Shown: piece by piece, positions 1 through 28,383 of the stretch
How the letters are laid out: the number at the start of each line of letters is the position of its first letter
Position numbering within the stretch: position 1 is the first letter of the stretch
Source: a virus
Reading direction: 5' to 3' (one strand)
DNA length: 41,689 bases
IMG/VR virus record: IMGVR_UViG_3300045283_000328
Coordinates: 1 to 41,689 of that record
Program-made: the position numbers and the translations under genes
Notes under the pieces: generated by a model
What the model was told of the DNA's origin: nothing
Database searches by the model: none
The model's input: the letters and a program-made list of their open reading frames with translations, nothing else

Positions 1-97
1 CGGGCGGGTCCGGGTCCCGGTCGAACGTCAGCGGACGCGCCGCCCTGATCTCCAGGACGGACGGCTTCGGCGGGTCCTCCTTCACGCGGCGGGGCAT
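1..97 (-). CDS. Partial hypothetical protein (N-terminus only)
   Basis: An ATG at 97 overlaps the stop of the next upstream gene (TGATG) and opens a frame that runs off the left edge after 32 codons. The visible start reads MPRRVKEDPPKPSVLEIRAA, basic and proline-rich, with G/C at nearly all third positions. The coupling and codon use make it a likely gene. Too little is visible to assign a family. Confidence 0.55.
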   Translation of the reverse strand, partial: MPRRVKEDPPKPSVLEIRAARPLTFDRDPDPP

Positions 98-1035: not shown

Positions 1036-1211
1036 GGGAGCCCCGCCAGCTTCGCGAGCGCCCCGGGTACTCCCGCCATGACTCCCCCCGTCAGCAGCGC
1101 CCAGAGAGCGCAGCCCCACCATGGGCGATCGTCGTGGAAATAGTCGTCGAACGCTTCGAGGTAGGCGACGAGCGCCGACGCGAACATCCACATCATGAAC
1201 CAGGTCTTCAT
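1032..1211 (-). CDS. Small membrane protein (59 aa)
   Basis: The ATG at 1211 overlaps the upstream stop (ATGA), and the stop at 1032 overlaps the next GTG. The protein begins MKTWFMMWMFASALVAYLEA, then has a charged loop (DDYFHDDRPW), then a second hydrophobic stretch, WGCALWALLTGGVMAGVPGA. Two transmembrane helices with a short acidic loop are likely. Small two-TM proteins are common in phage early regions, and nothing in the context fixes a role. Confidence 0.7.
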   Translation of the reverse strand: MKTWFMMWMFASALVAYLEAFDDYFHDDRPWWGCALWALLTGGVMAGVPGALAKLAGLP

Positions 1212-1357
1212 CGCGCCCGCTTCCCGTGGATCACGCACCGGACCCGACGGCCGTCCCACTTCCCCGGTCGGCCGCAGCGTGGGCCGCGCCCGGTCCGGTA
1301 GGTGCAGGCGTAGCCGCAGACGGAGTGGTTGAGGGGGAAGCCGGCCGGTGCGCCCAT
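1208..1357 (-). CDS. Tiny Cys-rich protein (49 aa)
   Basis: A 50-codon frame begins MGAPAGFPLNHSVCGYACTY and includes RCGRPGKW and VRCVIHGKRAR before its stop. It overlaps both neighbours by 3-4 nt (TGATG at the start, ATGA at the end). The four Cys residues plus His suggest a small zinc-binding knuckle. It fills what would otherwise be a 145-nt gap. Family unknown. Confidence 0.6.
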   Translation of the reverse strand: MGAPAGFPLNHSVCGYACTYRTGRGPRCGRPGKWDGRRVRCVIHGKRAR

Positions 1358-1650
1358 CAGAGACCGACACCCGGGTTGTCGCCGGCGAAGCTCGGCTCCG
1401 GCGAGCGCGCGTGCTTCTTCATCTCAGCGAGGAACTCCTGTGCGCGTTCGCGGACATCGAACGAGGCGTCAGACTGCGCGATCCGGAGTGCCGCCAGCCC
1501 CGCCCAGATCAGCGCCGCGGCGACCTGGTCGCGGTCGTGGGCGTCGAGGAGACACGCGGCGCCGCGCGTGAAGCAGTCCTGCGCCCTCCGGAGGAGACGC
1601 GCTCTCTCCGCGTGCGGGTTCGGCTGGTTCGGTCGGCGCCCGCGCTTCAA
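1357..1650 (-). CDS. Hypothetical helical protein (97 aa)
   Basis: A basic N-terminus (MKRGRRPNQPNPHAERARLL) is followed by alanine-rich helices resembling a TPR-like hairpin (AQDCFTRGAACLLDAHDRDQ, then VAAALIWAGLAALRIAQSDA). It starts at an ATG overlapping the UDG-like gene's stop. No specific family is assigned. Confidence 0.7.
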   Translation of the reverse strand: MKRGRRPNQPNPHAERARLLRRAQDCFTRGAACLLDAHDRDQVAAALIWAGLAALRIAQSDASFDVRERAQEFLAEMKKHARSPEPSFAGDNPGVGL

Positions 1651-2069
1651 GCGACCTCACCCCACGGGACCCACGGCGCGACGCGCGAGAGGAGAGCCCT
1701 CGCCTCCTTCCGCGCGCGCGGGTCGTTCCACTGTTGGTTGAGGCCCGACGGGTGCGGCAGCGCGACGAGGATCCCCTGGGCGCTGAACGCCTCCATCTTC
1801 GGGACGCCGAACGCCGCCTTGACCTTCACGCCCAGCATGACGACCACCTTCCAGCCGGGGTACGCCAGGATCTTCGAGGCGTGCGCCCGCGCCTGGTCCT
1901 TCTCCCACTCCGGCTCGCAGAGGTTCGTCTTCGCGATCTCCTCGTACGTCGCGTCCATCAGCCCCAGGTGCTCCCGGAGCCGGTTCCCGCTCGCCTGGCG
2001 TGGGAGGTGGTAGAGCGCCATGTCCGCCCCGCCCCACGGGTTCGACTCGCCGACGAGAAGGAGGCTCAC
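1647..2069 (-). CDS. Uracil-DNA glycosylase superfamily-like protein
   Basis: 140 residues from a GTG overlapping the upstream stop. The N-terminus has a Rossmann-like strand then GESNPWGG, corresponding in position to motif 1 of the UDG superfamily. A central strand reads KVVVMLGVKVKAAFG, and a late motif reads ALPHPSGLNQQWND, matching the H-P-S-G-L-N loop of motif 2. Superfamily members excise or bind modified bases. Whether this one is catalytic cannot be told from sequence alone. It could act in phage DNA-modification metabolism or evasion of host restriction. Confidence 0.7.
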   Translation of the reverse strand: MSLLLVGESNPWGGADMALYHLPRQASGNRLREHLGLMDATYEEIAKTNLCEPEWEKDQARAHASKILAYPGWKVVVMLGVKVKAAFGVPKMEAFSAQGILVALPHPSGLNQQWNDPRARKEARALLSRVAPWVPWGEVA

Positions 2070-2305
2070 TCGACCGGTTCCTTCCCGACCTTGTCCAGCC
2101 GGTCGAGGAGCGCGCGTCCCCGGTGGATCTCACACGAGCAGTCCGTCCGGAAGCACCTCGTCGGCGGGCGCTCCGGGTCGAGCAGCACCCGGAGCAACTC
2201 CTCCATCTCCGGCGCCGCCGCGCGGACGGCGGCGGCGCGGTCACCGATCGGGCACACGCAGCATCGCGTCTGGACGTCGAAGCACGCCTGGTAATGCTGG
2301 GCCAT
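2066..2305 (-). CDS. Small Cys-rich protein (79 aa)
   Basis: Two cysteine clusters, TRCCVCPIGD near residue 15 and TRCFRTDCSCEIH near residue 50, flank an alanine/leucine helix (APEMEELLRVLLDPE). A structural zinc site is likely. The ATG at 2305 directly follows the upstream TAG, and the end overlaps the UDG-like gene. Family unknown. Confidence 0.65.
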   Translation of the reverse strand: MAQHYQACFDVQTRCCVCPIGDRAAAVRAAAPEMEELLRVLLDPERPPTRCFRTDCSCEIHRGRALLDRLDKVGKEPVE

Positions 2306-2569
2306 CTACTGGTCTACCTCCACGCCGTAGCCGAGCGCGGTGCTGGCGGCGCGCGCGCCGCGGATGAACGCGTCCAGCTTCCCCTCATCCCCGAACGTCT
2401 CCCGCCACTCGCCGTTCGGGAGGTAGACGACCACCGTCCAGGCCGCGAGCGGCGGGCTCGCCTCCGGGACCACCAGCGGCAGGACGCGGACCGCGATCGC
2501 GCGTCGGGGCGGCGGAGGGTCGTCCTCCATCGAGATCACCACGGTCGGCAGCGCTCCGTCCCCGCTCAC
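2306..2569 (-). CDS. Hypothetical protein (87 aa)
   Basis: A GTG at 2569 overlaps the upstream stop (GTGA). The sequence includes ALPTVVISMEDDPPPPRRAI and an AAWTVVVYLPNGEWRETFGD strand pair, suggesting a small alpha/beta fold. Codon use matches the neighbours. No family is recognised. Confidence 0.6.
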   Translation of the reverse strand: MSGDGALPTVVISMEDDPPPPRRAIAVRVLPLVVPEASPPLAAWTVVVYLPNGEWRETFGDEGKLDAFIRGARAASTALGYGVEVDQ

Positions 2570-2799
2570 GTCGGCAGCGCCTCCTTCAGCGGGCAGTCCG
2601 GACCGCACGGGTCGTCCCACCCGGGCGCAGTGATGAACGCGGCCCCGGTCCCGTCGCAGGCGTCGCACCCGGCGACCTCGACGCCCATGGTGAGCGTCCC
2701 CTCGCCGCCGCACTTGGCGCAGTCGATCACGACGACGCCGTGTCGCTCGACCACGTGGTCCAGCCGGCGGTACTGAGCAGCCTCGTCCCCGATCGGCAT
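2566..2799 (-). CDS. Small zinc-ribbon protein with CxxCxGxG-type motifs
   Basis: 77 residues from an ATG overlapping the ParB-like gene's stop (TGATG). Two DnaJ-like half-motifs are visible, CAKCGGEG and CDACDGTG, spaced about 18 residues apart, as in DnaJ central-domain zinc modules. A further CGPDC follows. Such single modules are common in phage early genes. Partners are unknown, and the position suggests co-expression with the ParB-like protein. Confidence 0.7.
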   Translation of the reverse strand: MPIGDEAAQYRRLDHVVERHGVVVIDCAKCGGEGTLTMGVEVAGCDACDGTGAAFITAPGWDDPCGPDCPLKEALPT

Positions 2800-4322
2800 C
2801 AGGCGGCAGTCTTCTTCTTGGACCTCTTCGCCGCCTTCTTGGCCTTCGCCTCCACGGCGATCTTCTTCTCGACGGCGTCGAAGTTGATCCCCAGCGCCTT
2901 GAGCGTCTCCCCCCAGACCGGCTTCGCCGGATTCCACTTGCCCGGCGCGATCGTCCGGAGGGCCAGCTCCAGCCCGAGACCGGCGACCTCTGCCGGCGCT
3001 GCGAGAGTCTTGAGGTAGGCGAGCAACCGCTGCTCGACGCCCGTCCCGCGCTTCCCGTCCTCCAGCCCTCGCCGCCAGCTGACCGCCATCTGGACGTCGT
3101 TCCACGAGCGCTCGACCAGGGCGTGGGTGAGGAGGCGGAGGACCTGGGCAGAGGACAGGACCTTGAGCTTCTCGACGGCCATCATGACCACCTGGCTGAC
3201 AGCGGCCGCCCGGCGCCGCTGAGCCTCCTCCTGGCGCTTCTGGTTGTCCGACGACGGGTTGTCGCTACGACCCGGGGCGGCCGCCTTCGACAGCTTCGCG
3301 ACGTCGGAAGCCCTGACCAGCTCCACGATCGCGCCGGTCCGGTCGTCCTGCGCCAGCGAGACCGGCGGCCGGTTCTTCTTGCCGAGGAACGTCCGGATCT
3401 TCTGGTACTTCCCGCCGACGTAGTCCTCGTCGTCCAGCTTCTTGTACCCGCCGCCGTAGCCGAGCGCGGACTGCGCCGCCTTCCCCTCGAGGACGGGCGT
3501 CCCGCCGGCCTTCGCCTCCCTCAGCCGGACCTGCCAGACGGCGTCGAGCTTCCCGCGGTAGCAGACGCGGTCCACGCAGAGGTCCGCGCGCGCGGCGTCC
3601 GGGAACAGCTCCCGCTGCTGGCCGGTCCGCTTCGGGCACGTCGTGCACGCGCCGGCCTTCTCCACCAGCTTGGCGTCCGTCACGTCGAAGGGCGCCTGGT
3701 CCAGCCGGAGGAGGTAGGTCGCCTCCAGCCTCCTCTTCGCCTCCGCCGCGCTGACCCCGTGGTACAGGCTCTTGAGCGCCTCTGCCTGGAGGGCGACGGG
3801 GACGCGCGCGACCAGCACCGCGACGCCCAGGGAGATCTCCTCGTCGTCGAGCGCGTCGCGCCCCTCCTTGCTCAGCTCGCAGAGCTTCAGGCGCTGCGCG
3901 ACGTGCGTCACCGGGCGGCTGACCTTGTCCGCGATGTACTGGACGGTCTTCCCCCGCTCGACCATCCGCTTGAAGCCGTCCGCCTCGTCGAGCGGGTGCA
4001 TGTCCTGGCGGTGGACGTTCTCGACCATCTGCAGCTCGAACACCTCGTCGTCCGTCAGGTCGCGGACGATCGCCGGGATCGTCTGCCTCTTCGCCATGAC
4101 GGAGCCCGTGTGCCGGCGGTGGCCGAAGACGATCTCCCACCCGCCCGCCTTCCGGACGCGGACGATGATCGGCTGGATGACGCCCTTCTCCCGGATGGAC
4201 TTGACGAAGTCGTCGTCCGGCTTCTTCTCCCCCCGCTTGCGCGGCTGCGACGGCGACTTGTGGCACTTGTCGAGCGGGAGGAGGACGACCTCCTCGGTCT
4301 TGTTCTCGGCGGTTCTGGTCAT
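2799..4322 (-). CDS. ParB/Spo0J-like nuclease-domain protein
   Basis: 507 residues. A ParB N-terminal domain spans about 12-105, with the PSQPRKR strand, IREKGVIQPIIVR and the phosphate-binding GHRR box at 67-70, followed by QMVENVHRQDMHPLDEA. A helix-turn-helix follows (about 125-150: IADKVSRPVTHVAQRLKL). A Cys cluster (C226, C229, C249, C254) resembles ones seen in plasmid ParB-like proteins. The C-terminus is a long Lys/Ala-rich tail. No ParA is visible, so a role in transcription, DNA binding or nuclease action is as likely as partition. The ATG at 4322 is preceded by AGGAAGGG. Confidence 0.85.
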   Translation of the reverse strand: MTRTAENKTEEVVLLPLDKCHKSPSQPRKRGEKKPDDDFVKSIREKGVIQPIIVRVRKAGGWEIVFGHRRHTGSVMAKRQTIPAIVRDLTDDEVFELQMVENVHRQDMHPLDEADGFKRMVERGKTVQYIADKVSRPVTHVAQRLKLCELSKEGRDALDDEEISLGVAVLVARVPVALQAEALKSLYHGVSAAEAKRRLEATYLLRLDQAPFDVTDAKLVEKAGACTTCPKRTGQQRELFPDAARADLCVDRVCYRGKLDAVWQVRLREAKAGGTPVLEGKAAQSALGYGGGYKKLDDEDYVGGKYQKIRTFLGKKNRPPVSLAQDDRTGAIVELVRASDVAKLSKAAAPGRSDNPSSDNQKRQEEAQRRRAAAVSQVVMMAVEKLKVLSSAQVLRLLTHALVERSWNDVQMAVSWRRGLEDGKRGTGVEQRLLAYLKTLAAPAEVAGLGLELALRTIAPGKWNPAKPVWGETLKALGINFDAVEKKIAVEAKAKKAAKRSKKKTAA

Positions 4323-4349
4323 CGGTTCGGTTCCCTTCCTGTCAGCTCA

Positions 4350-4505
4350 CTACCACGGCCAGCCGTCCGCGAGCCACGCGGCGCCGGCGACGATCATCAT
4401 GACCCACCACCACAGCGGCGGGCCGTCGTCGGCCGGCGCCTCCACGCGCGGCGCGACCCAGCCACCCGCGCGCGTCGGCGCCCGGAGCCCGGTCTTCACC
4501 CTCAC
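4350..4505 (-). CDS. Small single-TM protein (51 aa)
   Basis: The GTG at 4505 overlaps the upstream stop (GTGA). The frame reads MRVKTGLRAPTRAGGW, then a Pro/Asp linker, then a tryptophan-rich hydrophobic helix (LWWWVMMIVAGAAWLADGW) and a TAG at 4350. One C-terminal membrane segment is likely. It fills most of the gap before the ParB-like gene. Confidence 0.5.
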   Translation of the reverse strand: MRVKTGLRAPTRAGGWVAPRVEAPADDGPPLWWWVMMIVAGAAWLADGWPW

Positions 4506-4966
4506 GACGTCTCCGACTGGCGCTTGCGCAGCGACGCCGCGTGCTCGTCGATCAGGACCTTCGTGACGGCCAGCGACAGCTCCTGGGGGGCGTTGCCCAG
4601 CTCCATGTCGACCACGTCCCCGTGGTCGTCGACAACGCCGAGCCGGATGTTCACGCGACCCGGGATCGGGTCGGGGAGCATGTCGACCTCGCGCACCTGG
4701 TGGTCGCGCGGGCGCGGCTTAGAGATCTGGATGACGACCTCACCAGACTTCGCCGCATAGCTGGTCGTGTCACTCGGGAGGTCTAACCTCTCTGGCGGCT
4801 CCGTGGTACCAGCGCGCCGAAGGATGTCGGCAATCAAGCGGCGCCCCTCCTTAGTCGATACGAAGATCGACCTGAAGTGCTCCTGGAGGACACCCGCGCA
4901 GACGTGGAACATCTGCTGGTCCGTCAGCCGGGACGGGTTCCCTCCAGTGTCAGTCGGGTCACTCAC
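4502..4966 (-). CDS. Hypothetical protein (154 aa)
   Basis: GTG start at 4966 overlapping the upstream stop. The N-terminal region (QQMFHVCAGVLQEHFRSIFV) is helical. The C-terminal half is beta-rich, with GEVVIQISKPRPRDHQVREV and VNIRLGVVDDHGDVVDMELG, and ends in a helix. It may be a small ligand- or nucleic-acid-binding phage protein, but no family is recognised. Confidence 0.7.
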   Translation of the reverse strand: MSDPTDTGGNPSRLTDQQMFHVCAGVLQEHFRSIFVSTKEGRRLIADILRRAGTTEPPERLDLPSDTTSYAAKSGEVVIQISKPRPRDHQVREVDMLPDPIPGRVNIRLGVVDDHGDVVDMELGNAPQELSLAVTKVLIDEHAASLRKRQSETS

Positions 4967-5160
4967 GAGACGGTCCTAGTGACGTGGTCAGCGCAACGGC
5001 TTCCTCTCCGCGTGTAGCCGATGCAACCCGGGACGACGCAGTTCGCGTGCCCATCGATCGGAAGCGGCGGGAGTGGCATGCCGAACGCCGCGAACGATCG
5101 GTGGTCGGCCTGCAACTTCTTCAACGCGTCCAGGCGCTGGCGCTTCTCGTCCTCGTCCAT
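4963..5160 (-). CDS. Small putative zinc-finger protein (65 aa)
   Basis: The ATG at 5160 has AAGGATC about 10 nt upstream, part of the CGGTGAGTAAG element. In-frame GTGs at 5187 (overlapping the upstream stop as GTGA) and 5181 are alternative starts but lack a Shine-Dalgarno. After a charged helix (MDEDEKRQRLDALKKLQAD) comes C-V-V-P-G-C, then RGSRCADH, a plausible CCCH zinc site. Function unknown. Confidence 0.65.
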   Translation of the reverse strand: MDEDEKRQRLDALKKLQADHRSFAAFGMPLPPLPIDGHANCVVPGCIGYTRRGSRCADHVTRTVS

Positions 5161-17118: not shown

Positions 17119-20100
17119 TCAGAAAGGTGAGACCGGCGTCAGCCGGAGCTTGAACGAGAGCTTGAGCGTCCCGCTGACCGACGGCCCGCCGCCGCCGCCG
17201 TGCAGGCCCAGGCCGAACTTGTCCGTGGTCGCCGCGCCGAAGTTGCTCACGAGCGCCTCCTGGCAGCCCGTGCTAGCCGACGTCCAGGTGAAGACGTTGC
17301 CGCCGGCGCCGTTGAGCGAGATGAACCCGGTCAGCGTGCCGCTGGTGATGGTGTTCGTTCCCACGATGCAGGCGTCGGCGACGGAGTAGCGCGGGAGGGT
17401 GCCAGCCATCGGGTACTCGACCTTCGTGGTCGAGGCCGGGAACACCGTGTCGTGGGCGGACACCGACAGGTACTGGTCGGCCGCGTTGATCGTCCCGATC
17501 ATCCCGGACGTCAGCTCGACGTAGTAGGTCAGCTCCGCGGTCGGGGTGGCGTTGAGCAGCTCGCCCGTGCCCGTCACGGACGGGGGCTGCGTGATGACGT
17601 AGCCGCCGCCGGTCAGCGTCGAGGCTCGCACCTGGGCGCCGGCGAGGCGGACGTTCGCGCCCACGGCGTCGACCACGATGTTGCGGTAGCTCGTGCCGAG
17701 CCCGACCACCTGGCTCTGGATGTTGAAGTCCGTCCCCGAGATGAACGCGCGCACCTGGTCGTAGTTCGTCGCGCCGATCATCCCGCTGCCGCCGGTGTTG
17801 CGCCAGGTGACGAAGCCGTCGTTGGACACCATGAACTGGTCCGTCGAGTCGTCGATCCGGATCTCGTCGCTGGCGGCGAAGTCGGTCCCGCCCGCGTTGC
17901 CAGAGAGGACGCGGTGACTGTTGGGCATGGCCTCGGTCGATAGCAGGCCGGCGGCGGAGGTCCTGGCCAGGCCGTTGGTCAGGCTCGACATCGTGACGGT
18001 CCCGTTCGTGTTGAGCATGAGCTGGTTGTTGTTCGTGGTCCCGTTCGTCAGCCACCCGGCGGCCAGCATCACGGGCCGGTCGGTCCCGGTCCCCGCCTTG
18101 CCGGAGGCGATGACGAACGTCGACCCCGTCGCGCGGATCGCCGCGACCTCGTAGTTCACCGTGTCCGCCGGGTAGTCGGTGGCGAAGACGTTGAGCGCCG
18201 AGATGTTCCCCGAGACGCCGGTCCCGCGCGGGATGACGGACAGCGCCGAGCCGACGTTCGTCCCCGTGTTCGGGTAGACGAACAGCTGGCCGTAGTTGGC
18301 CGCGCTGTCCGGGTTCATCAGTCGGGTCGTCACGCCGGTCGTGCCGGGCCCGACCACGATCGCGCCGGTCGCCTCGTTGAGGCTGGTCCCGATGCCGCCC
18401 ACGAGGATCCGGCCCTTGGTCCCGCTCGTGGTGCTCGAGAGCGTCAGGTCGTTCGAGGCGGCCGTCCCACCGACCACGGACTGGCCGCCGGAGACACCGG
18501 TCGACAGGTTCACGGTGACGTCCGTGCGCGTGCTCCCCCCGTTGTCGACGGCCGTCAGACCCGTGGACGCGTTCCAGGCGCCCCGCTGGGTGACCGGCGT
18601 CCCGGCGTTCTGGATCGCCTGGTAGAAGGCAACCCCGCCGCCGGTCGAGGCGGAGGTGATGCGGCCGAACGCGTCGACCGTGAGGTTCGTGTTCGTGTAG
18701 CTCCCGGGTGTCACGGCAGTGGCGACCAGGTCGAGGACCGGGGTCGTTCCTAGCGTCGAGCTGATGCGGCCGGCGGTCCCCGAGACGGACGACACCGCCC
18801 CCGTGACGTCCGCGACCGGGATCGTCGCCGAGACCGAGAGCTGGCCGGTGGTGACCGTCGCGGAGACGTGACCACCAGCGGAGAGGTCTGGAATCTGCAC
18901 TGCGCCGCCGTTGAGGGCGCGCAGGCGAGCCGTGCCGGTAGACCTGGTCGCGATGACGACGTCAGCGCCTGCCGTGTTCCCGGCGTTGTAAAGGACCAGG
19001 GGAGCGCCTGCGGCCAGCGGTTGGTGCCAAAGATAGCCGGCGCTGCCCGTGCCCAGTACGCCGGGGAAGCCGGTGTTGTTGGCGCCGGCGGTGCCGAACG
19101 AGATAACCGAGCCAGAACTTCCGTTGTCAGATCCAGCGATGGCGGCGATGGTGGCGCTGGCCGCGGATCCGGTACTCGAATTGGAAAGGTTCACCTCAGC
19201 GTCGGCGTTGATCGACCGGGCGACATGCAGGGCCGAATTAGATGGCAACGGGTTCGTCGTGAGGCCAGAGACGATCGTGCCGTTGGTGGGGTCGCGCCAA
19301 AACGTCGTTGTGCCGTTGAGCGCATTGCCGGCCGAGCCGAAGCCGATCTCGGTGGCAGTCAGGCCGACCGACGAACCAGGGATCGTGGTAACGCCGACGA
19401 GTTGCCCGGACCCGTTTCGCTCGACGAAGCTGTTTGCGGGCACCGCGTTCCAGGTCAGCAGCGTCGGGCCGCCGGTCTCGTAGACCGTGGACGGGAACGG
19501 CGTATTCGGCCCCAGCACCGTATCGACGACTGCGGGCAGCGCGGACACCGCGTAGCTCGTCGACCCGATCGTGATAGGCGAGCCGTCCGACGTCGACCCC
19601 GCGACGAATGGCGGCAGCGCCGTGACGCTCTGGCCGTAGTAGAGCGAGCCGCCCCACTGGACCTGCACCAGCTTCCCGCTGTTGCCCTTGCCGCTCATGC
19701 CGTTCTGCATGAACGCCGCGCGACCGTTGCCCACCACCGTGATCGCCGGCTGGGTCAGGTCGTGGAACGCGACCGCCGCCTCGATGGTGAAGTAGGACCA
19801 GTCGTTGACCGTCACGCGCGCGCCCTGGAAGACGATGGCGCCGCCGATCCCGCCCTGGCCGAAGAAGGTGTACGTCGCCGTGCCCGTGCCGATGAACCCC
19901 CCGCCGATGATCGTGGGCGGCGTCTGCGTCCCGAACGAGACGGCGCCGCCGGCGGAACCGAGGTTCACCATGCAGTTGGTCTGCGCCGCGCCGATGGTGA
20001 TGAAGTTGGTCGAGTGCGTGTCGATCCAGACGCGCGAGCGCAGGGGAGCGTAGCCGCGCGGGCCGCCGTCCTCGATCGCGTTAGTCGCCTCGATCGCGCG

Positions 20101-21339
20101 GAGCGTGTCGAAGCGGACCTGGTTCGCGTCCGCGAACCCGAACGTCTGCGGGGGCATGGTCCACATGTGGAACGCCGAGTAGGCGTTGCCGACGGTGAGC
20201 GGGTTGCTGGCGAAGGTCGCGGGACCGACGTTGTTCATCGGGACGGTGATGCGGACGCACTTCGACCCCAGGTCCTTGACCGCATACCAGTGCCGAGTCG
20301 CCGTGACCGTGCGCCGGAAGATCACCCCGTTGGCGAGGAGGCCGCTGGCCGTGAACGACGTCGGGATCGACGTGTCGCACAGCTCGACGTCGTCGGCGGC
20401 AGGCGTCGCGCTGCCCGCGGTGTAGGTCGTAACGGCGCCAGTAAAGAGCGTGTTGTCGATCGCGGCGCCGCCGAACCCGGTCGTGGCGCCCAGCGACCCC
20501 AGGAACGTGACGTGCGCGCCGAGCGCGAGTCGCGTGTTCCAGGCGTGCGAGTCCGCCGCGGAGACGTCGCCCAGGACGTTGATCGTCGTGTCCGACACGA
20601 CGTCGGCGCCCCACCAGCGGCGCTTGATCTCGCCGACCGTCGCGCAGGCCGTCGCCGCGCTGGTGCACGCCGCCGCGTTCGACCCGTTGACCGTGTCGAC
20701 GTACCAGGCCGTGGCCAGTGGGAAGTCACTCCGGTAGCTCGGTCTCGTCGAGTCTGACCGGAGCAACGTGGTGGCTGCTCCGACGCTGCCGAGCGCGGTG
20801 GGTCCGACCGGCGTCGACCCAGAGTACAGGCCGGAGATGCTACCCAGCGGGATCGCCGACGTGAAGGTCAGCGCCCCGCCGGCCATGCCGAGGAACTGGC
20901 CGTTCGCGCTAGCGACGATGTCCGCGACGTTCGCGATGCTCCCGCCGGCGACGCCGACCACCGACGTCGCCGCGCCCTGGCGGAACTTCGGGTTCGTCAC
21001 GACGTTGGCGCCGAGCGTGAACGAGACCGACCCCGGTCCCGTCGCCGTCCCGTCACCCGTGAGCGCCGTGATCGCCGCGGGCGCGCCGCTGATGTCCACG
21101 TACGGGATCGTGGCGACGGTGGAGATCGTGCCGTTGAGACCGCTGCTCTTGGAGTAGCCCGCGCCGGGCGTCACGAACTGGAGCGCCACGGCGCCGCTCG
21201 CGCGGTCCGGGGTGAGCGGGATGCCGTAGAGCTTGAAGTTGTTCTGGTCCTGGTCGGCCTGCGCCACGGTGCGCGCTGCCGCCGGCGCCGCCGAGAGGAC
21301 CAGCGCCAGCGCGACGCAGAGTCGACCGAGCCTGGTCAC
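17119..21339 (-). CDS. Tail-fibre-like giant protein with a signal peptide (1406 aa)
   Basis: Residues 1-23 are a typical Sec signal peptide: a basic start, a hydrophobic core (LCVALALVLSAAPAAA) and an A-x-A-type cleavage region. NNFKLYGIPLTPDRASGAVA resembles the first repeat of phage fibres. About residues 212-600 look like a parallel beta-helix domain (VDTVNGSNAAACTSAATACA onward). The remainder holds fibre-type repeats, including GSYTNTNLTVDAFGRITSAS. Virion fibres normally lack signal peptides, so export to the periplasm or surface is implied. It is coupled (ATGA) to the Skp-like gene upstream. Confidence 0.8.
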   Translation of the reverse strand: MTRLGRLCVALALVLSAAPAAARTVAQADQDQNNFKLYGIPLTPDRASGAVALQFVTPGAGYSKSSGLNGTISTVATIPYVDISGAPAAITALTGDGTATGPGSVSFTLGANVVTNPKFRQGAATSVVGVAGGSIANVADIVASANGQFLGMAGGALTFTSAIPLGSISGLYSGSTPVGPTALGSVGAATTLLRSDSTRPSYRSDFPLATAWYVDTVNGSNAAACTSAATACATVGEIKRRWWGADVVSDTTINVLGDVSAADSHAWNTRLALGAHVTFLGSLGATTGFGGAAIDNTLFTGAVTTYTAGSATPAADDVELCDTSIPTSFTASGLLANGVIFRRTVTATRHWYAVKDLGSKCVRITVPMNNVGPATFASNPLTVGNAYSAFHMWTMPPQTFGFADANQVRFDTLRAIEATNAIEDGGPRGYAPLRSRVWIDTHSTNFITIGAAQTNCMVNLGSAGGAVSFGTQTPPTIIGGGFIGTGTATYTFFGQGGIGGAIVFQGARVTVNDWSYFTIEAAVAFHDLTQPAITVVGNGRAAFMQNGMSGKGNSGKLVQVQWGGSLYYGQSVTALPPFVAGSTSDGSPITIGSTSYAVSALPAVVDTVLGPNTPFPSTVYETGGPTLLTWNAVPANSFVERNGSGQLVGVTTIPGSSVGLTATEIGFGSAGNALNGTTTFWRDPTNGTIVSGLTTNPLPSNSALHVARSINADAEVNLSNSSTGSAASATIAAIAGSDNGSSGSVISFGTAGANNTGFPGVLGTGSAGYLWHQPLAAGAPLVLYNAGNTAGADVVIATRSTGTARLRALNGGAVQIPDLSAGGHVSATVTTGQLSVSATIPVADVTGAVSSVSGTAGRISSTLGTTPVLDLVATAVTPGSYTNTNLTVDAFGRITSASTGGGVAFYQAIQNAGTPVTQRGAWNASTGLTAVDNGGSTRTDVTVNLSTGVSGGQSVVGGTAASNDLTLSSTTSGTKGRILVGGIGTSLNEATGAIVVGPGTTGVTTRLMNPDSAANYGQLFVYPNTGTNVGSALSVIPRGTGVSGNISALNVFATDYPADTVNYEVAAIRATGSTFVIASGKAGTGTDRPVMLAAGWLTNGTTNNNQLMLNTNGTVTMSSLTNGLARTSAAGLLSTEAMPNSHRVLSGNAGGTDFAASDEIRIDDSTDQFMVSNDGFVTWRNTGGSGMIGATNYDQVRAFISGTDFNIQSQVVGLGTSYRNIVVDAVGANVRLAGAQVRASTLTGGGYVITQPPSVTGTGELLNATPTAELTYYVELTSGMIGTINAADQYLSVSAHDTVFPASTTKVEYPMAGTLPRYSVADACIVGTNTITSGTLTGFISLNGAGGNVFTWTSASTGCQEALVSNFGAATTDKFGLGLHGGGGGPSVSGTLKLSFKLRLTPVSPF

Positions 21340-21896
21340 TTCCCCGGACCGCCCTTCTTGAGGTCAGCGCGCGCCGCTGCCAGCTCACCCCGGAGCTTGG
21401 TCACCTCGTCGGTGGCCGCGTCGAGCCGCGCGACCGTCTCCGTCGTCACGTCCGCGCTCGGGGCGTAGTACGGCGGCTTGCCGGAGACGGGGATGACCAG
21501 CTTCATCCCGCGCGCCTGGGCGACGCGCGCGATAGCGACGTTGATCTGGTTCTCCATGACGCCGGCCGATTCCTTCTGGCGCTTCACCTCGACCTGGTAC
21601 GCCTGGTTCGCCTTGCCGGCGGCGACCATGAGCGGTCGCTGGTCCTCGTCCTTCAGCTTGTCCTCGATCGACTTTCGGTACGCCTGGTTCGCGCGCTCCG
21701 CCGCGGCCTTCAGGTCCTCGACCTTGGTGTTGCCCTCGTCGGCCGCGACCTTGAACTCCTTGCCGGCCCTCGACTCGGCGACGACCTTGTCGACGTCCAC
21801 GAAGCCGACAGGGCCGCTGTCGGAGCAGGCGCCCACTAGGAGCGCGCCCACTAGGAGCGCGGTGATGGTTGCGAGGACGGCGGTGGTCTTGTTCAT
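21336..21896 (-). CDS. Skp/OmpH-like periplasmic chaperone lipoprotein
   Basis: 186 residues. The signal peptide has a lipobox (LVGAC, Cys24). The mature protein starts VGFVDVDKVVAESRAGKEFK as in Skp/OmpH. A long helical coiled-coil arm follows, and a C-terminal strand region (MKLVIPVSGKPPYYAPSADV) matches Skp's closing 'Y...DIT..V' part. Skp holds unfolded outer-membrane proteins. Here it is lipidated and coupled to the signal-peptide fibre, its likely client. No Shine-Dalgarno precedes the ATG at 21896. TGTTATCAT lies 7 nt upstream, so a local, possibly leaderless promoter is conceivable. Confidence 0.7.
   Translation of the reverse strand: MNKTTAVLATITALLVGALLVGACSDSGPVGFVDVDKVVAESRAGKEFKVAADEGNTKVEDLKAAAERANQAYRKSIEDKLKDEDQRPLMVAAGKANQAYQVEVKRQKESAGVMENQINVAIARVAQARGMKLVIPVSGKPPYYAPSADVTTETVARLDAATDEVTKLRGELAAARADLKKGGPGK
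21829..21858 (-). repeat. 15-bp perfect tandem repeat in a signal peptide
   Basis: The unit GCGCCCACTAGGAGC occurs twice back to back (21829-21843 and 21844-21858). It encodes the doubled ALLVG in the hydrophobic core and lipobox of the Skp-like lipoprotein. Being a multiple of three, gain or loss of a unit keeps the frame and changes only signal-peptide length. Confidence 0.9.
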
Positions 21897-21930
21897 GCCG
21901 GCGATGATAACAGCCGGCGGCGGGTCGCGA

Positions 21931-22359
21931 CTACTTCTGGAGCATCCCGCGGAACGCGTCCTCCTCGTCGACCCCGGTCACCTTGGCGGCCGCCTTCACG
22001 GCGTCCAGGGACGGTCCCGCGTAGACGTGGAGCGTCTTGCCGTCCCAGGTGAACTTCAGCATCACGTCCCGGAGGTCGAAGCCCTGGAGAGAGAGGGCCG
22101 TGGAGACGACGGCGCGCAGCGTGTCGTAGTCCTTGATCGGTCCCTTGGCCCCCTCGTGCTCGAGCATCGCCTTGGAGATCGCCTCGGCCACGCCGGGGCG
22201 ACCGAGACCCCTCTTCACGGCCTCCACGCGCGCGCCGACGCCAGCCTCCCGGAGCTGGTGGTCTACCTTCTTGCGGACGCAGAGGTCCTTCTTGAGAGCC
22301 TTGTGTCGCTCCTTCCGGATCTCCTTGCGGACGCGGCGCCTGTCTCGCTCCGTCGACAT
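21931..22359 (-). CDS. Hypothetical basic protein (142 aa)
   Basis: The ATG at 22359 overlaps the upstream stop (TGATG). The N-terminal ~45 residues are very basic and helical (DRRRVRKEIRKERHKALKKD). The C-terminal half contains YDTLRAVVSTALSLQGFDLR and FTWDGKTLHVYAGPSLDAVK. It sits between the receptor-binding-type gene and the Skp-like gene. Family unknown. Confidence 0.65.
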   Translation of the reverse strand: MSTERDRRRVRKEIRKERHKALKKDLCVRKKVDHQLREAGVGARVEAVKRGLGRPGVAEAISKAMLEHEGAKGPIKDYDTLRAVVSTALSLQGFDLRDVMLKFTWDGKTLHVYAGPSLDAVKAAAKVTGVDEEDAFRGMLQK

Positions 22360-23396
22360 CAGTAGATCGCGTTTCCGGTCTCGGTGTTGTTCCGGATCTG
22401 GAGGCGGGCGACCGCCAGCTTGGTCACCACGTTCGTGGCGGTCGTGCGGAACATGGGCTTCACCGGGACCGCGCTCCCGCCGGCCGGCGGCGCGATCAGG
22501 ATGGCGCGGTCGACCACGGGCGCGGCGCCGGGGGCCGCGTCGAGGAACAGGCGGACGCGCGCGACGCCGCTGTCGTTCGCGTTGGCGCCGCGCAGCTCCA
22601 GGCGGACCCGGTGCTTGCCGTCGTCCTTCGCGATCCCAGTGTCGTCGATGTGCGACGACCCGGTGCCGCCCTTCGTGTAGAGCTCGAAGTTCGCGTGCCC
22701 AGGCCGGCAGACCAGGGCGACGCCCTGGACGTCCTGGGTCACGAACTCGGTCGTGACGCCCTGCTGGCTGACGGCGGTGAACCCCTGGGCGCTGTTCAGG
22801 CCGCTCGCCGTCCCCTGGCTCATGAAGCCCCACTGCATCACGAGGTCCGCGTCGTCGTCGGCGAGGAGGCCGTAGGCGTGCTCTACCGACTCGGAGTTGG
22901 CGGTGATGCCGCCGGTCCCGGTGGACAGCAGCAGGCAGCTCGTGCGCGGGTAGAAGATGGACGTCAGGAACGCGAACGGCGCCGGGTCGGACAGCTCGAC
23001 GCGGCCGGCGGCGGCGCCGGAGATCGAGTAGTTCCAGCGACCCGACCACGCGCCGTTGGCGATCGAGTTCTTGAGGACCATCCCGACGTCGTTCCAGTCC
23101 TCGTTGACCTGGAGGACCTGGCCGAGGTCGTTGTAGCCGAGGTGGTCGACCACGCCGCGCGCCTGCAGGAGCGCGTTGCGGTACCGGGCGATCGCCTGGC
23201 CGACGTCGGCGGAGTTTCCGAACGGCGCCTTCAGGAACTGGACGTAGTCGGCCAGGGCCTTGTACGCCTGCGCCCACGTCGCCGCGTTGGGGGGGTCCGT
23301 GTCGATGGGCAGGTTGACGACCAGGGCGACGTCGTCGTACGGCGGCGCGGCCGGCGCCTGGGTCGCTGTCGGGTCTGCGGTGTACGGCGTCGGCAT
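22359..23396 (-). CDS. Putative receptor-binding/tail fibre protein (345 aa)
   Basis: The N-terminal ~85 residues are helical (ATWAQAYKALADYVQFLKAP), as in proteins attached to baseplates. The remainder is beta-rich and resembles a lectin-like jelly roll, with NYSISGAAAGRVELSDPAPF, QWGFMSQGTASGLN, and late strands HRVRLELRGANAND and VRLFLDAAPGAAPV. It directly follows the gp48-like gene, where fibre genes of Mu-like phages lie. Assignment rests on position and composition. Confidence 0.6.
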   Translation of the reverse strand: MPTPYTADPTATQAPAAPPYDDVALVVNLPIDTDPPNAATWAQAYKALADYVQFLKAPFGNSADVGQAIARYRNALLQARGVVDHLGYNDLGQVLQVNEDWNDVGMVLKNSIANGAWSGRWNYSISGAAAGRVELSDPAPFAFLTSIFYPRTSCLLLSTGTGGITANSESVEHAYGLLADDDADLVMQWGFMSQGTASGLNSAQGFTAVSQQGVTTEFVTQDVQGVALVCRPGHANFELYTKGGTGSSHIDDTGIAKDDGKHRVRLELRGANANDSGVARVRLFLDAAPGAAPVVDRAILIAPPAGGSAVPVKPMFRTTATNVVTKLAVARLQIRNNTETGNAIY

Positions 23397-23405
23397 CTCG
23401 CCCTC

Positions 23406-24188
23406 CTAGGGTCCTAACACGAACGACGACGTCCCGTCGCCAGGGATGATGCGCACCGAGTTACCCCCGAGGTTCGGCTCCGTCCCGAGCAGCCGGCCGG
23501 TGGGCCAGCCGAGCAGCCGGCCGGCGAGGATCACGGCCGCGCCGTCGTAGTTGTCCTTGCTCTGCCGCCACTGGACGCACATCGCGGTCAGCAGCGCCTG
23601 TCCCGGCGAGACCGACCCGTCGCCGTTCGGCTGGAGGTTCGCGTGGTCAGCCGTGAAGACCACGCCGAAGACGGTCCAGAAGTCGTCGCGCCAGTCGAAC
23701 GTCCAGCCCGGGTGGTTGGACCGCGTCACGCAGTTCATCAGCGAACCGAGCGTCAGGTCCGCGATCGTCCCAGAGCTGCCGGTCAGCTTGGAGTAACGGC
23801 CGTTCTGCTGGACGACTACGAAGTCCGCGAACCCCGCGATCGCCAGCGCCCGCAGGAGCCCGTAGTGGGCGCCGCCGTACTTCCACTGCTCCCACGCCAC
23901 CAGGAGCCGGGCGGCGTAGTTGGCCGACGTCTCCCCCGACCCGCGCGGGAGGCCGCGGTCGGCGCCGATCACGGCGAGCGCGTCGTCCGCCGGCGGGACC
24001 TGGACCGGGTGCGCGGGGTCCGTGACGTTGTCGAGCGCGCCCTTCGTCGGGAACCCAGAGAGGATCGCCTGCCGCAGCATGTCCTCCTGGACGTCGAGCA
24101 TCTTCCCGACGGCCGTCCACTGCGCGCGGCCCATCGTCCGGCGCCAGGGACCGGGGAGCTGGCGGGGCATCCACCTCTCGAACGGCAT
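23406..24188 (-). CDS. gp48/gpI-like baseplate protein
   Basis: 260 residues. FERWMPRQLPGPWRRTMG opens the protein, then ARLLVAWEQWKYGGAHYGLL RALAIAGF and FDWRDDFWTVFGVVFTADH. The position after baseplate-J proteins and before fibre genes is that of Mu gp48 / P2 gpI, which join baseplate to fibre. The sequence match is by layout, not by a signature motif. Confidence 0.6.
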   Translation of the reverse strand: MPFERWMPRQLPGPWRRTMGRAQWTAVGKMLDVQEDMLRQAILSGFPTKGALDNVTDPAHPVQVPPADDALAVIGADRGLPRGSGETSANYAARLLVAWEQWKYGGAHYGLLRALAIAGFADFVVVQQNGRYSKLTGSSGTIADLTLGSLMNCVTRSNHPGWTFDWRDDFWTVFGVVFTADHANLQPNGDGSVSPGQALLTAMCVQWRQSKDNYDGAAVILAGRLLGWPTGRLLGTEPNLGGNSVRIIPGDGTSSFVLGP

Positions 24189-24248: not shown

Positions 24249-24581
24249 ATGAAGACCATGTCGCTCGTAGTCATCCTCACCCTGTCAGCCTGCGCCGGTG
24301 ACCCCCTCCAGGGGGGGACGGACGCGGAGCGCTACGCCCCCGCCGGGGACGTCACCAGCTGCCACGTCACGCGGTCGCCGACGGGGTGCGGGCCGGAGGT
24401 CCAGTGCTCCGGCGCGCTCGCCGACTGCGTCGCGCGCGGCTGCTGGATCTCGGGGACCTCGACCTACCTATACCCGGACGGGAGCTGGCGGGCGCCCTAC
24501 CCGCAGCCGGGGACCTGGCACTTCGACGCGGGCAAGGTGCTCGAGAACGGCGCCCCCGCCGACGACTTCTCCTGCCCCTAG
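24249..24581 (+). CDS. Cys-rich lipoprotein, moron-like (110 aa)
   Basis: The only plus-strand gene. The signal peptide MKTMSLVVILTLSACAG has a lipobox (LSAC). The mature part has six further Cys (TSCHVTRSPTGCGPEVQCSG, DCVARGCWIS, then a final SCP) and Trp/Tyr-rich loops, suggesting a small disulfide-bonded periplasmic or surface domain. Its TAG overlaps the TAG of the convergent baseplate gene in a CTAG. A lone, oppositely oriented lipoprotein inside late genes fits a lysogenic-conversion or superinfection-exclusion gene. The target is unknown. Confidence 0.75.
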   Translation: MKTMSLVVILTLSACAGDPLQGGTDAERYAPAGDVTSCHVTRSPTGCGPEVQCSGALADCVARGCWISGTSTYLYPDGSWRAPYPQPGTWHFDAGKVLENGAPADDFSCP

Positions 24582-26020
24582 ACCTCGACCCAGTTCAGGC
24601 TCGCCAGGTCCGCGACGACGGCGACGTCGTTCACGCCGAGGACCACGTTGGCCGCGACCCCGTTGAGGAGCAGGCCGGTCACGTCGATCACCCCGGCGTC
24701 GACTAGGATCTGCTCAAGCTTCGCCAGGCGCACCGTCCCGCCGATGTCCGTGTCGCCGCCGTACGCCGACCACGCCAGGTTCGCCGCGGCCTGGACGTCG
24801 GCGCGCTTCTCGCTCTTGACCGTGACCTGACCACCCGTGGCGTTGGTCGCGGTGACGGTCACGTTCGTGGCGGCCGCCACCAGGTCGAGGTCGCAGATCC
24901 CCTCCTGCTGGTCGATCGCCGTCTGCACGGTGGCGATGACGCCGCCGCCGAGCGGGGCGGTCCCGGGCGCGCCCGCGATCGTCACTAGCACGCGGCCCGG
25001 GTAGGTCAGGTCGGGTTGTAGGGCGACGCGCTTGACGGCGGCGTTCGCCTTCTTCGCCCAGGTCTTCCGCTTGTCGTCAACGATGGCGGAGGTGTCGTTC
25101 CACAGGTCGTAGCAGCGCTGGACCAGCGCCGCGTCGGTCTCGGCTGGAGTCCCCGGCCGGACGATCGGGCTGCCCGGCGACGTGAACGAGTAGACGTCAC
25201 CCGTCCTGAAGCTGGGGTTCGACCCGCCGGCGTCGTTGGTGAAGTGGACCGTCACGGTCCCGATCACGAACGTCGCCGCCATGTTCTGGGTCGCGCTCCA
25301 CGGGCCGCCGTTGAGCCGGTAGCGGAACTGCGCCGTGGTGTTCTGTCCGGAGCGGACGACCTGGACGTCGTACGCGGTCGTGACGGCGGGAGCCGTCCCC
25401 GTCAGCGTCACCACGCCCAGGCCGAGCGCAGGCACCGGCGTGGTCGTCACCGCGGAGAACGTCGGCGGTGCGTTCGTCGCGGTGACCCCCGACCACGGGA
25501 CGGCGAGCTTGGTGAGGCTGTTCGGCCCGTCAGCGTAGAGCCGTCCCTTGCTCGGGTCGTTCGGCCCCTCCGCCTGGACGGTGACGAGGAGGAAGTTCGG
25601 GGCGCCGGTCGTCAGCGTCCCGCCCGTGATCGCGTAGTAGCGGTTTCCGGTCAGCGGGGATGTGACGACGAAGCTCGAGTCTACGACGAACGGTCCGTGG
25701 GTCCCGTCGCTGTCGATGCGCAGTGTCTGCTGCGTGAGCACCGCCCTGACCCGCGTCGTGTTGAACCTCTGATCGGCGACCAGGTCGACCCAGTCGGAGC
25801 TGGGAGCGAACCCGAAGTAGGGCGCGCCGACCAGCGCGGGGAACAGCTCGGTGAGGAGATTGTGGGCTCCGAGGGCCGAGTACTGCATCTGCGTCAGGCG
25901 CTCCGCGCCGGGGTTCCAGTCCGTGATCGGGTCCTGCCGCGACTGGAGGATCCCGATCATCAGCTGACGGAACTGGTCCAGCGTGATCGGGTCGAGGACC
26001 TGGCTCGGCGTCTTGCTCAC
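24578..26020 (-). CDS. Second baseplate J/gp47-like protein
   Basis: 480 residues from a GTG at 26020 overlapping the first gp47-like gene's stop (GTGA). The start MSKTPSQVLDPITLDQFRQL parallels the first copy. The C-terminal region (VKRVALQPDLTYPGRVLVTI, AIDQQEGICDLDLVAAATNV, RLAKLEQILVDAGVIDVTGL) is the typical baseplate-J end. The central part is a beta-rich insert. Family members form the wedge ring of contractile baseplates. A divergent tandem paralogue of 26017-27477. Confidence 0.75.
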   Translation of the reverse strand: MSKTPSQVLDPITLDQFRQLMIGILQSRQDPITDWNPGAERLTQMQYSALGAHNLLTELFPALVGAPYFGFAPSSDWVDLVADQRFNTTRVRAVLTQQTLRIDSDGTHGPFVVDSSFVVTSPLTGNRYYAITGGTLTTGAPNFLLVTVQAEGPNDPSKGRLYADGPNSLTKLAVPWSGVTATNAPPTFSAVTTTPVPALGLGVVTLTGTAPAVTTAYDVQVVRSGQNTTAQFRYRLNGGPWSATQNMAATFVIGTVTVHFTNDAGGSNPSFRTGDVYSFTSPGSPIVRPGTPAETDAALVQRCYDLWNDTSAIVDDKRKTWAKKANAAVKRVALQPDLTYPGRVLVTIAGAPGTAPLGGGVIATVQTAIDQQEGICDLDLVAAATNVTVTATNATGGQVTVKSEKRADVQAAANLAWSAYGGDTDIGGTVRLAKLEQILVDAGVIDVTGLLLNGVAANVVLGVNDVAVVADLASLNWVEV

Positions 26021-27477
26021 GACGACGCCCAGCCGAGCGTGGAGGATATCGCCGGCTTCGCGACGGGGACGAAGCCGTCGGAGACGATCACGTTCACGGG
26101 CCACACGGCGCCGGCTGCCTGGAAGACGACGTCGCGGACGTCCACTGCGCCGGCGTCGATCAGGAGCGCGACGAGCTTGGAGAGGACCACCTCGGACGGG
26201 CCGATGTCGACGCTCGCGAGGTAGGAGACCCACGCGTCGTCGACGCGACCCTGGAGCTCCGCCAGGCTCTCCGCGCTCATGTCCGGCGGGACCAGTACCG
26301 TGCCGGTCGCGAACGTGAAGATCGGCTGTGCCGACTTGGCCTGGACGCCCTCACCGAAGTTCAGGCGCGCCTCGACGTACTGCTCGATCTGCTGGAGCGC
26401 GACGAGGTCGATCGAGCCGTGCGTGTCGGCGACCGTCGCCAGGAACCGGTTCGGGACCACGTTGTCAGGCGTGATCCGTATCCGGTTCACGGACGGGGCG
26501 ACCTGGCTCACCCAGAGGCGGACCTTCCCGTCCATGACGTTCGGGGACTGCGACGGCCAGCGGTCGCGGCCGCGCTGCGCGTAGCGCGGGTCTGACTCGG
26601 GGTCGTTGCCCTGCACCCGGTTCGCGCCGCCGGGCGTCTCGAAGGAGAACACGTCTCCGGCGGCGAACGACGGCGCGGCGCCGTCAGTCACCGAGACCGA
26701 CGTCCCGTCACCGAGGTCCTCGGCCGAGTGGATCGGCCCGCGGAACACGTAGTCGCCGCCGTCGACGCTCAGCTCCCAGGTCGCCGCGTCCACGTTGCCG
26801 GTGTCGACGATCCTGATCGCGAAGTCGTGCGGGAACGGCGCCACCGTCGGCTGCGTGCGGCGCGGCGCGATCCCGCCGGTCGACGTGCCGGTGTTCCCCA
26901 CCGCGGAGAACTCTCCCCTGCCCGGGACCAGCGTCACGCCCGCGAACCCCGTCACCATCGTCAGGCTGCCGAGGAGGTCGGCGTACGTGGAGCCCGGCTG
27001 CTCCGCGGCGAACGAGAGGACGACGCTGCTGCCGGGTGACAGCGTTCCCGGGGTCGTGCTCTGGTACCGCTTGCCGGTCGGTCCGACCAGCCACACGTCA
27101 CCCTCCTGGAACTCGTTGACCGGGGCGTTAGGTGTCGAGACCAGCGTCATGTCGAACGTGGTCTTCGTCGTCAGGCCGCGCGTGAGCAGGTAGACCTGCT
27201 CCACCAGGAGGTCCAGCCAGTCACCGGAACCCCATGCGAGGGACTGGCCGGCGGCGATCGTGGCGAGCTGCTTCGACACCGGGGCGTCGGCGCCGATCCT
27301 CTGGTCGATCGCCCCGCACAGCATCTCGACGAACGTCATCTCCGTCCCGGTCGGCTCCCCGGCCCACTCCGTGATCGCGGGGAAGCCGCCGGCCTGGAGG
27401 AGCGCCAGGAACTGGACCTTGAAGTCCGCCAGGGTCTGCGGCGTCAGGAGCTGGGTGAGCGTGAACGGCGCGCCCAT
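26017..27477 (-). CDS. Baseplate J/gp47-like protein
   Basis: 486 residues. LTPQTLADFKVQFLALLQAG and TEMTFVEMLCGAIDQRIGAD form the N-terminal helices. AAGQSLAWGSGDWLDLLVEQ and GDVWLVGPTGKRYQSTTPGT are typical of Mu gp47/baseplate J. The C-terminus has DLVALQQIEQYVEARLNFGE and VVLSKLVALLIDAGAVDVRD. It builds the baseplate wedge together with the gp46-like protein encoded just before it. Confidence 0.85.
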   Translation of the reverse strand: MGAPFTLTQLLTPQTLADFKVQFLALLQAGGFPAITEWAGEPTGTEMTFVEMLCGAIDQRIGADAPVSKQLATIAAGQSLAWGSGDWLDLLVEQVYLLTRGLTTKTTFDMTLVSTPNAPVNEFQEGDVWLVGPTGKRYQSTTPGTLSPGSSVVLSFAAEQPGSTYADLLGSLTMVTGFAGVTLVPGRGEFSAVGNTGTSTGGIAPRRTQPTVAPFPHDFAIRIVDTGNVDAATWELSVDGGDYVFRGPIHSAEDLGDGTSVSVTDGAAPSFAAGDVFSFETPGGANRVQGNDPESDPRYAQRGRDRWPSQSPNVMDGKVRLWVSQVAPSVNRIRITPDNVVPNRFLATVADTHGSIDLVALQQIEQYVEARLNFGEGVQAKSAQPIFTFATGTVLVPPDMSAESLAELQGRVDDAWVSYLASVDIGPSEVVLSKLVALLIDAGAVDVRDVVFQAAGAVWPVNVIVSDGFVPVAKPAISSTLGWASS

Positions 27478-27480
27478 GTC

Positions 27481-28383
27481 CTAGCCCACCACCGACCCGG
27501 ACATGTTCTTCATCCGCGCGTCACTGGCCGCGCCGCTCGACTGGATCGTGATCTGCACCGGCACGACGCCCGTCGGGTTCGTGAAGGTGTTCGCCAGCTT
27601 GATCGGGAGGAACGAGGTCCCGTTCCTGGTCTTCGTGTCGATGAGAGTGCCGCCGCCGGGCGCGCTGCCGACGTTGACGAACGACCCGCCGACGTAGAGC
27701 CGGAACGTCGCCGTGCCGGACGCGGAGCTGGCCAGCATGTTGAAGTCGGCGCTCAGTGCCCCGGCCGGCAGGGCGCCCGCGTCGAACGTGAACTGCCACC
27801 ACACCAGCTCGGTCCCGCTGTCGTCCGCCTGCTCGTCCGTCGCGCTGAAGGACTGGCTGGCGTTGCCGGCGGGACCAGCCGGACCGGGAGGTCCCGAGAT
27901 GCCAACGCCGGGCGGCCCGGCGACCCCGGGCGGCCCGGCGAACGACGGCGCCGTGGCGGCTGAGAGCGCCAGGCCAGCGGGCGCGCCGGCCTGGCCCGCG
28001 TTGAGGATGTCGATCGAGAGCGCGTTGACGCCGAGCACCAGGTCGAACGGTCCGTCCGCCGACGCCACCTCCAGGACGACCGTGAGCGTGCCCTGGCCGA
28101 CCTGGACGGAGGCGACGCAGTCGTCGACGCGCTGGTCCTTCAGGACCTCCGCCACGATCGCCGAGCGGAGCGCGGCGAGGGCGGCGGTCGTGAAGCTCTG
28201 GTTGAGAGCCCCCAGGAGGTTGAAGCCGTAGCTCAGGTCGTAGTAGAGCCCGCCGCGCGTGGTCGACAGCCGGCGGACGATCGCCATCGCCAGGTTCGCC
28301 TGGCCCGAGACCAGGCCCCAGCGGAGCCCCAGGTCGTAGAGGTGCTCGACGTCCGTGCCGTAGTCGACCGCCGCGACCGTCAC
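27481..28383 (-). CDS. gp25/gp46-like wedge protein with collagen-like extension
   Basis: 300 residues. Residues 1-125 fit the gp25/Mu gp46 wedge (LAMAIVRRLSTTRGGLYYDL, LRSAIVAEVLKDQRVDDCVA). Residues 150-174 are a collagen-like Gly-x-y run (GPPGVAGPPGV, GPPGPAGPAGN). Residues 176-300 are a beta-rich C-terminal domain (WQFTFDAGALPAGALSADFN, ATFRLYVGGSFVNVGSAPGG) like fibre-tip folds. gp25-like proteins are usually only about 130 residues, so the extension is an unusual fusion that may project from the baseplate. Confidence 0.8.
   Translation of the reverse strand: MTVAAVDYGTDVEHLYDLGLRWGLVSGQANLAMAIVRRLSTTRGGLYYDLSYGFNLLGALNQSFTTAALAALRSAIVAEVLKDQRVDDCVASVQVGQGTLTVVLEVASADGPFDLVLGVNALSIDILNAGQAGAPAGLALSAATAPSFAGPPGVAGPPGVGISGPPGPAGPAGNASQSFSATDEQADDSGTELVWWQFTFDAGALPAGALSADFNMLASSASGTATFRLYVGGSFVNVGSAPGGGTLIDTKTRNGTSFLPIKLANTFTNPTGVVPVQITIQSSGAASDARMKNMSGSVVG

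Follow-up and report, generated by a model that had tools for sequence, protein, structure and literature searches.

Why would a tailed phage carry a gene for a giant fibre-like protein that begins with a secretion signal, coupled directly to a gene for a periplasmic lipoprotein? The two genes lie in the IMG/VR virus record IMGVR_UViG_3300045283_000328, which was analyzed as one window of 41,689 bases (linear, 69.5% G+C), and encode a fibre-like protein of 1406 amino acids (aa) and a lipoprotein of 186 aa. A preliminary description had interpreted them as an exported fibre with a Skp-like lipoprotein chaperone. This is still the best-supported reading, helped by the presence of a separate fibre gene without a signal, while the accompanying claim that no such system had been described needs qualifying. 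On balance, we lean slightly towards the view that the pair is a two-gene export cassette for a host-envelope fibre, located among the late genes of a phage that has a contractile tail and a Mu-like head.

The smaller protein is, as judged from its sequence, a lipoprotein of the Skp/OmpH family, and the resemblance proposed in the preliminary description was thus borne out. The match to Pfam OmpH (PF03938; E 2.8e-10, 41 bits compared to a cut-off of 32.4) covers positions 2-141 of the 141-position profile. In order to exclude a coiled-coil artefact, an independent profile was constructed from ten chromosomal OmpH proteins of Myxococcota, with the lipoprotein left out. The lipoprotein scored 42.9 bits with this profile (37.3 bits without its signal peptide), compared to 11.5 bits for the best of 2000 shuffled sequences, and no second protein of the window was found among the top scores. 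The hhalign comparison with OmpH gave 96%, pairwise comparisons with chromosomal Myxococcota OmpHs gave E-values of 1e-7 to 8e-4, and a single-sequence search of PDB returned Escherichia coli Skp chains as weak matches (E 0.06-0.07). In an alignment with seven host OmpHs, residues V33, D34, E84, G130, D149 and T151 were invariant, and both end signatures of the family are kept, (I/V)G.VD as VGFVDV and S.D(I/V/L)T as YYAPSADVT.

A lipid anchor is predicted from the lipobox LVGA/C24, which has Ser at position +2. The host OmpH copies examined carry plain secretory signals and no lipobox; tethering is therefore a special feature of the phage copy. The usual state of Skp/OmpH is soluble and periplasmic, and in this respect the lipoprotein is a tethered variant (solubility is not required by the Pfam definition). 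Its tentacle is ∼10 residues shorter than in the host copies. A separate observation concerns the DNA encoding its signal peptide, where an exact 15-bp tandem duplication (2.2 copies, positions 21829-21861) codes for ALLVGALLVG.

The N-terminus of the 1406-aa protein (MTRLGRLCVALALVLSAAPAAA) has the charged start, hydrophobic core and A-x-A site of a Sec-type signal. By a home-made signal score it ranked first among the 1453 open-frame start codons in the window, the next-best being those of a membrane-protein gene and a lipoprotein-like open reading frame (ORF). The only nearby start that drops the signal yet keeps the rest of the fibre is an in-frame GTG at codon 25, for which the signal score was 4.6, compared to 12.5 for GTG1. 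Shine-Dalgarno pairing was also better at GTG1 (-8.2 kcal/mol, top 11% of GTGs) than at codon 25 (-5.0 kcal/mol, 43rd percentile), and the clear Sec signal peptide claimed earlier is upheld by both comparisons. No transmembrane segment was detected by hydrophobicity after the signal, and the mature chain would thus enter the periplasm, where Skp works.

The fibre GTG lies in the last codons of the lipoprotein gene, and the overlap of 4 nt between fibre start and lipoprotein stop, already described, was found in the two ORFs as the common GTGA. The surrounding gene run is uninterrupted and on one strand, with the cassette located between tail genes and membrane/lysis-like genes. The Shine-Dalgarno pairing of the lipoprotein gene itself is nearly absent (-1.8 kcal/mol), which, together with an extended -10 promoter-like site (TGTTATCAT) just before its ATG, makes a leaderless lipoprotein transcript of its own possible. 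This site is the sole match in the window to the pattern TGNTATNAT, with 0.10 matches expected, and is a lead only, because the pattern was picked after the site had been noticed. A two-hexamer sigma-70 scan found no promoter.

The fibre character of the 1406-aa protein is moderately supported, by one recognised motif and by a composition rich in Gly, Thr, Ala, Ser and Asn. The motif, which includes VTPGSYTNTNLTVDAFGRITSASTG, matched a structural protein of Synechococcus phage S-CBS2 in tblastn (65% over 37 aa, E 3e-3) as well as the tail fiber protein of Pseudanabaena phage Pam2, and E-values against cyanophage structural and tail-fibre proteins ranged from 3e-3 to 0.7. The protein had no family match in Pfam, PHROGs or PDB, and the S74 peptidase/chaperone domain was likewise without a Pfam match. 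The fibre repeats of the preliminary description are reduced to this motif and the composition. Self-BLAST revealed no internal repeat, and Tandem Repeats Finder gave a single marginal row of 15 bp in the gene. A single-sequence model of residues 205-640 was too poor to show the predicted beta-helix (predicted local distance difference test, pLDDT, 33). Cys pairs at 225/232, 321/361 and 1324/1359 may form disulfides after export, although this is a weak indication.

In the related phages Mx4, MMP7 and Riverbug, the virion fibre comes next after a gpI-like tail protein. The place directly after the gpI-like protein of the window, which is typical of a virion fibre, is occupied not by the 1406-aa protein but by a 345-aa protein without a signal peptide. 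With a profile built from the fibre N-termini of Mx4 (p67), MMP7 and Riverbug, this protein scored 10.9 bits, compared to 6.9 bits for the best of 2000 shuffles, and phmmer against Mx4 p67 gave E 1.3e-4 in a three-sequence set. It is probably the conventional virion fibre. The presence of a signal-less fibre at the position used by the relatives indicates that the exported fibre and its lipoprotein are probably an addition, forming an extra cassette. No second large signal-bearing fibre was found in the fetched relatives, in which the only long matches were one lipoprotein-like ORF and one tape-measure-like ORF. The coordinates of the features are given in the table.

Features of the cassette and neighbouring genes in the 41,689-base window
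Feature	Coordinates	Strand	Basis or remarks
Fibre-like protein, 1406 aa, GTG start	17119..21339	-	ORF; Sec signal ~1-22; stop of lipoprotein overlapped by 4 nt
Predicted Sec signal peptide coding segment, residues 1-22	21274..21339	-	sequence and signal score
Fibre motif, residues ~869-900	18640..18735	-	tblastn to cyanophage proteins
Skp/OmpH-family lipoprotein, 186 aa	21336..21896	-	signal peptide 1-23, lipidation Cys24, OmpH domain ~30-158
Extended -10 promoter-like site	21904..21912	-	7 nt before lipoprotein ATG
345-aa protein at virion-fibre position, no signal peptide	22359..23396	-	N-terminal profile and phmmer
Tail protein (gpI-like)	23406..24188	-	phmmer: Mx4 p66 E 1.4e-13, MMP7 E 5.2e-13 (three-sequence set)
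Membrane protein, 134 aa	16281..16685	-	downstream of fibre; strongly hydrophobic in two segments; position as for a holin

The role of Skp is to hold proteins that are still unfolded, in the periplasm and just past Sec. In the favoured reading, translation of the fibre would be coupled to that of the lipoprotein via the 4-nt overlap, and both proteins would be exported by Sec. The lipoprotein would be lipidated at Cys24, which would keep its Skp-type domain on a tether in the periplasm; there it could hold unfolded fibre chains as they leave Sec, preventing aggregation and allowing trimerisation. The mature fibre would remain at, or be displayed from, the host envelope, and would act as an adhesin attached to the host cell or as a receptor mask, not as a regular tail fibre. 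A membrane-tethered copy of Skp, co-translated with a long, exported and probably trimeric fibre, has the features expected of a dedicated chaperone. Family membership, the lipobox, the signal-like N-terminus, the coupling and the separate fibre gene are the parts of this scheme that were read from the DNA; from these we infer the Skp-like holding, the fibre as client, its trimerisation, its passage through the outer membrane and its eventual role. In a bolder form, which we put forward only tentatively, the phage's own membrane-tethered Skp would bring a giant exported fibre into its folded, trimeric form, the first phage fibre built in the periplasm, and the product would re-dress the host surface (adhesion, receptor masking) or equip virions during lysis.

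There is precedent for each half of the favoured reading, and by analogy the nearest known logics of the cassette are those of the SadA/SadB pair and of the exported phage-type fibres of Bdellovibrio. The latter, the mosaic adhesive trimer (MAT) proteins, resemble phage tail fibres, have a signal peptide followed by a conserved, beta-rich domain of ∼130 aa, and are displayed on the cell; 13 of the 21 contain a self-cleaving S74 chaperone domain (PMC10769870). They have in common with the protein described here a signal peptide on a phage-fibre-like chain, with display on a Gram-negative cell in the MAT case; however, no lipoprotein partner is mentioned for them, whereas the phage fibre is paired with one (PMC10769870). 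In addition, MAT proteins are encoded by the bacterium, often with S74, while the phage fibre is without this domain. A comparison of the fibre with solved MAT tips gave no sequence match at E 1 or better. SadA and SadB are encoded in an enterobacterial operon and are, respectively, a trimeric autotransporter adhesin and a trimeric lipoprotein that helps its export (PMC3953254). The authors suggested that the helper may bind three chains near Sec and raised the question of whether analogous helpers exist (PMC3953254). The likeness is that a small lipoprotein is encoded together with a long, fibrous protein that is exported; for SadB, help in this export is known. However, SadA has a YadA-type outer-membrane anchor, whereas none was recognised in the phage fibre, the operon is chromosomal while the present cassette is phage-borne, and the fold of SadB differs from that of the Skp-family lipoprotein.

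With Skp/OmpH itself, the lipoprotein shares profile membership, VD near the start, G and D.T near the end, and a coiled region of tentacle size. Skp/OmpH proteins are usually soluble and encoded by bacterial chromosomes, whereas the phage copy is lipid-anchored, has a shorter tentacle and is encoded beside a fibre gene. A further comparison is with PblA and PblB, which are not known to have a signal peptide. Encoded by a prophage of Streptococcus mitis, they are surface adhesins that resemble tail fibres, and the likeness is that phage structural-type proteins serve as adhesins on a bacterial surface (PMC9917116). However, they are freed when some cells lyse and then bind to other cells (PMC9917116); the host is Gram-positive, and no chaperone is part of the system. 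The claim that no such system is described must therefore be narrowed, since MAT fibres and SadA/SadB each precede one half of it; it is the pairing of an exported fibre with a Skp-family lipoprotein, both encoded by a phage, that seems not to have been described.

The location of the cassette between tail genes and membrane/lysis-like genes, on the same strand, and a motif typical of phage structural proteins would also suit a virion fibre that is folded in the periplasm with the help of the lipoprotein and picked up by virions as lysis opens the envelope. We consider this unlikely. To our knowledge, no tailed phage assembles fibres in the periplasm for pick-up at lysis, and a literature search for such assembly returned nothing. 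Moreover, a probable conventional fibre gene is already present, and the periplasm, being oxidising and rich in proteases, would be a costly site for making a virion part.

The coupling might instead concern expression only, with the fibre exported for its own purpose and the lipoprotein having a separate envelope role, such as trapping outer-membrane proteins, which would deplete receptors (superinfection exclusion), or helping to disrupt the outer membrane at lysis. It is established for the Skp family that its clients are mainly outer-membrane proteins, and phage envelope proteins that block receptors exist, among them Llp of T5 and Cor. The possible leaderless promoter would also allow the lipoprotein to be expressed separately. 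Nevertheless, this explanation seems improbable, because the overlap of stop and start with the gene of one particular exported fibre fits a dedicated chaperone. Least probable is that the signal is unused, either because translation starts at the GTG of codon 25 or because the hydrophobic N-terminus serves to attach the protein to the virion, leaving an ordinary cytoplasmic fibre and an unrelated lipoprotein: odd N-termini are frequent in fast-evolving fibres, but the codon-25 ribosome site is average, the n-, h- and c-regions with their A-x-A site are signal-like, and the neighbouring lipoprotein is also periplasmic.

Several points weigh against an exported envelope fibre with its own chaperone. 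No autotransporter or YadA-type anchor (C-terminal YadA barrel) that could carry the fibre through the outer membrane was recognised in it by Pfam. The fibre identity rests on a single motif, and the signal score is home-made, not that of SignalP. The Skp fold, a trimer, runs from one strand through a pair of long antiparallel helices to two strands and a last helix. The single-sequence AlphaFold model of the lipoprotein (helices 43-80 and 84-128, strands 131-134 and 143-146, helix 152-181) has a Skp-like order of elements, but its confidence is low and a fold search with it gave no Skp match; at pLDDT 55 the model proves nothing. The sheath protein of the window, used as a query, had no match in 193 Myxococcota genomes, and thus no host was assigned. 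Finally, the gene pair was found in no other phage record, viral contig or Myxococcota genome searched and is a single example.

The usual view is that phage fibres fold in the cytoplasm, helped by chaperones that are either phage-encoded or intramolecular. If the favoured reading is correct, there would be a second assembly route, in which fibres are exported alongside a tethered periplasmic holdase. A helper of unrelated fold would then join SadB, the only such lipoprotein helper to have been described, and cellular fibre adhesins such as the MAT proteins would gain a plausible origin. Fibre and lipoprotein also make a compact, testable chaperone-client pair.

The minus strand carries nearly all genes of the window. 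The phage has a Mu-like head module (gpT capsid, I-type protease and F protein) and a contractile tail. For its DUF2586 sheath, the best named relatives are Meiothermus phage MMP7, Thermus phage Riverbug and Myxococcus phage Mx4, all of which have hosts with an outer membrane. Two consecutive baseplate-J-like genes overlap (24578-26101 and 26017-27477, minus strand). A 389-nt gap between tail genes contains, on the plus strand and thus opposite to them, an ORF for a 110-aa Cys-rich lipoprotein-like product (MKTMSLVVILTLSAC...; 24249-24581), which had no family match and is a possible moron. The 134-aa membrane protein downstream of the fibre had no family above cut-off in Pfam or PHROGs. A ParB-type protein with a ParB helix-turn-helix domain is encoded at 2799-4322 (minus strand), and the window genes checked included no recognisable integrase or transposase.

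Searches of 50,697 phage records, and of the viral contigs, detected no match to the lipoprotein or to the fibre taken as a whole. The lipoprotein had no match in the plasmids searched, and relatives of the fibre were sought in 195 Myxococcota genomes, with none found. Pattern-based scans detect close relatives only, and such absence is therefore no proof. Scans of viral contigs with the lipoprotein, whole fibre, sheath, baseplate J, gpI-like protein and fibre C-terminus gave no relatives; the capsid was the sole query to do so (36 loci), and the nearest contig, L002 (capsid 82%), stops short of the fibre region. An N-terminal motif, D(Q/L)DxNNFK, was rejected as a family marker, because the three contigs that it matched all did so by chance. 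Among 39 related phage records no OmpH was found above cut-off, MMP7 giving a sub-threshold match (10 bits, E 0.014), and host OmpHs matched nothing in PHROGs at E below 0.01. With a host OmpH as query, the 50,697 phage records yielded one match, the OmpH-like gene L082 2955-3425 (MT837958.1); its scaffold, 5.9 kb long and labelled 'Bacteriophage sp.', is unverified and possibly bacterial DNA.

Two other contigs provided minor observations. In L042 (IMGVR_UViG_3300047160_023722, positions 1-5000), the phage core is closely related to that of the window and the gene order near the baseplate differs, homologues of window regions 27481-28383 and 21931-22368 being adjoined. A strong signal peptide marks a small secreted protein encoded in L091, an unrelated Mu-like contig (7147-7629, minus strand).
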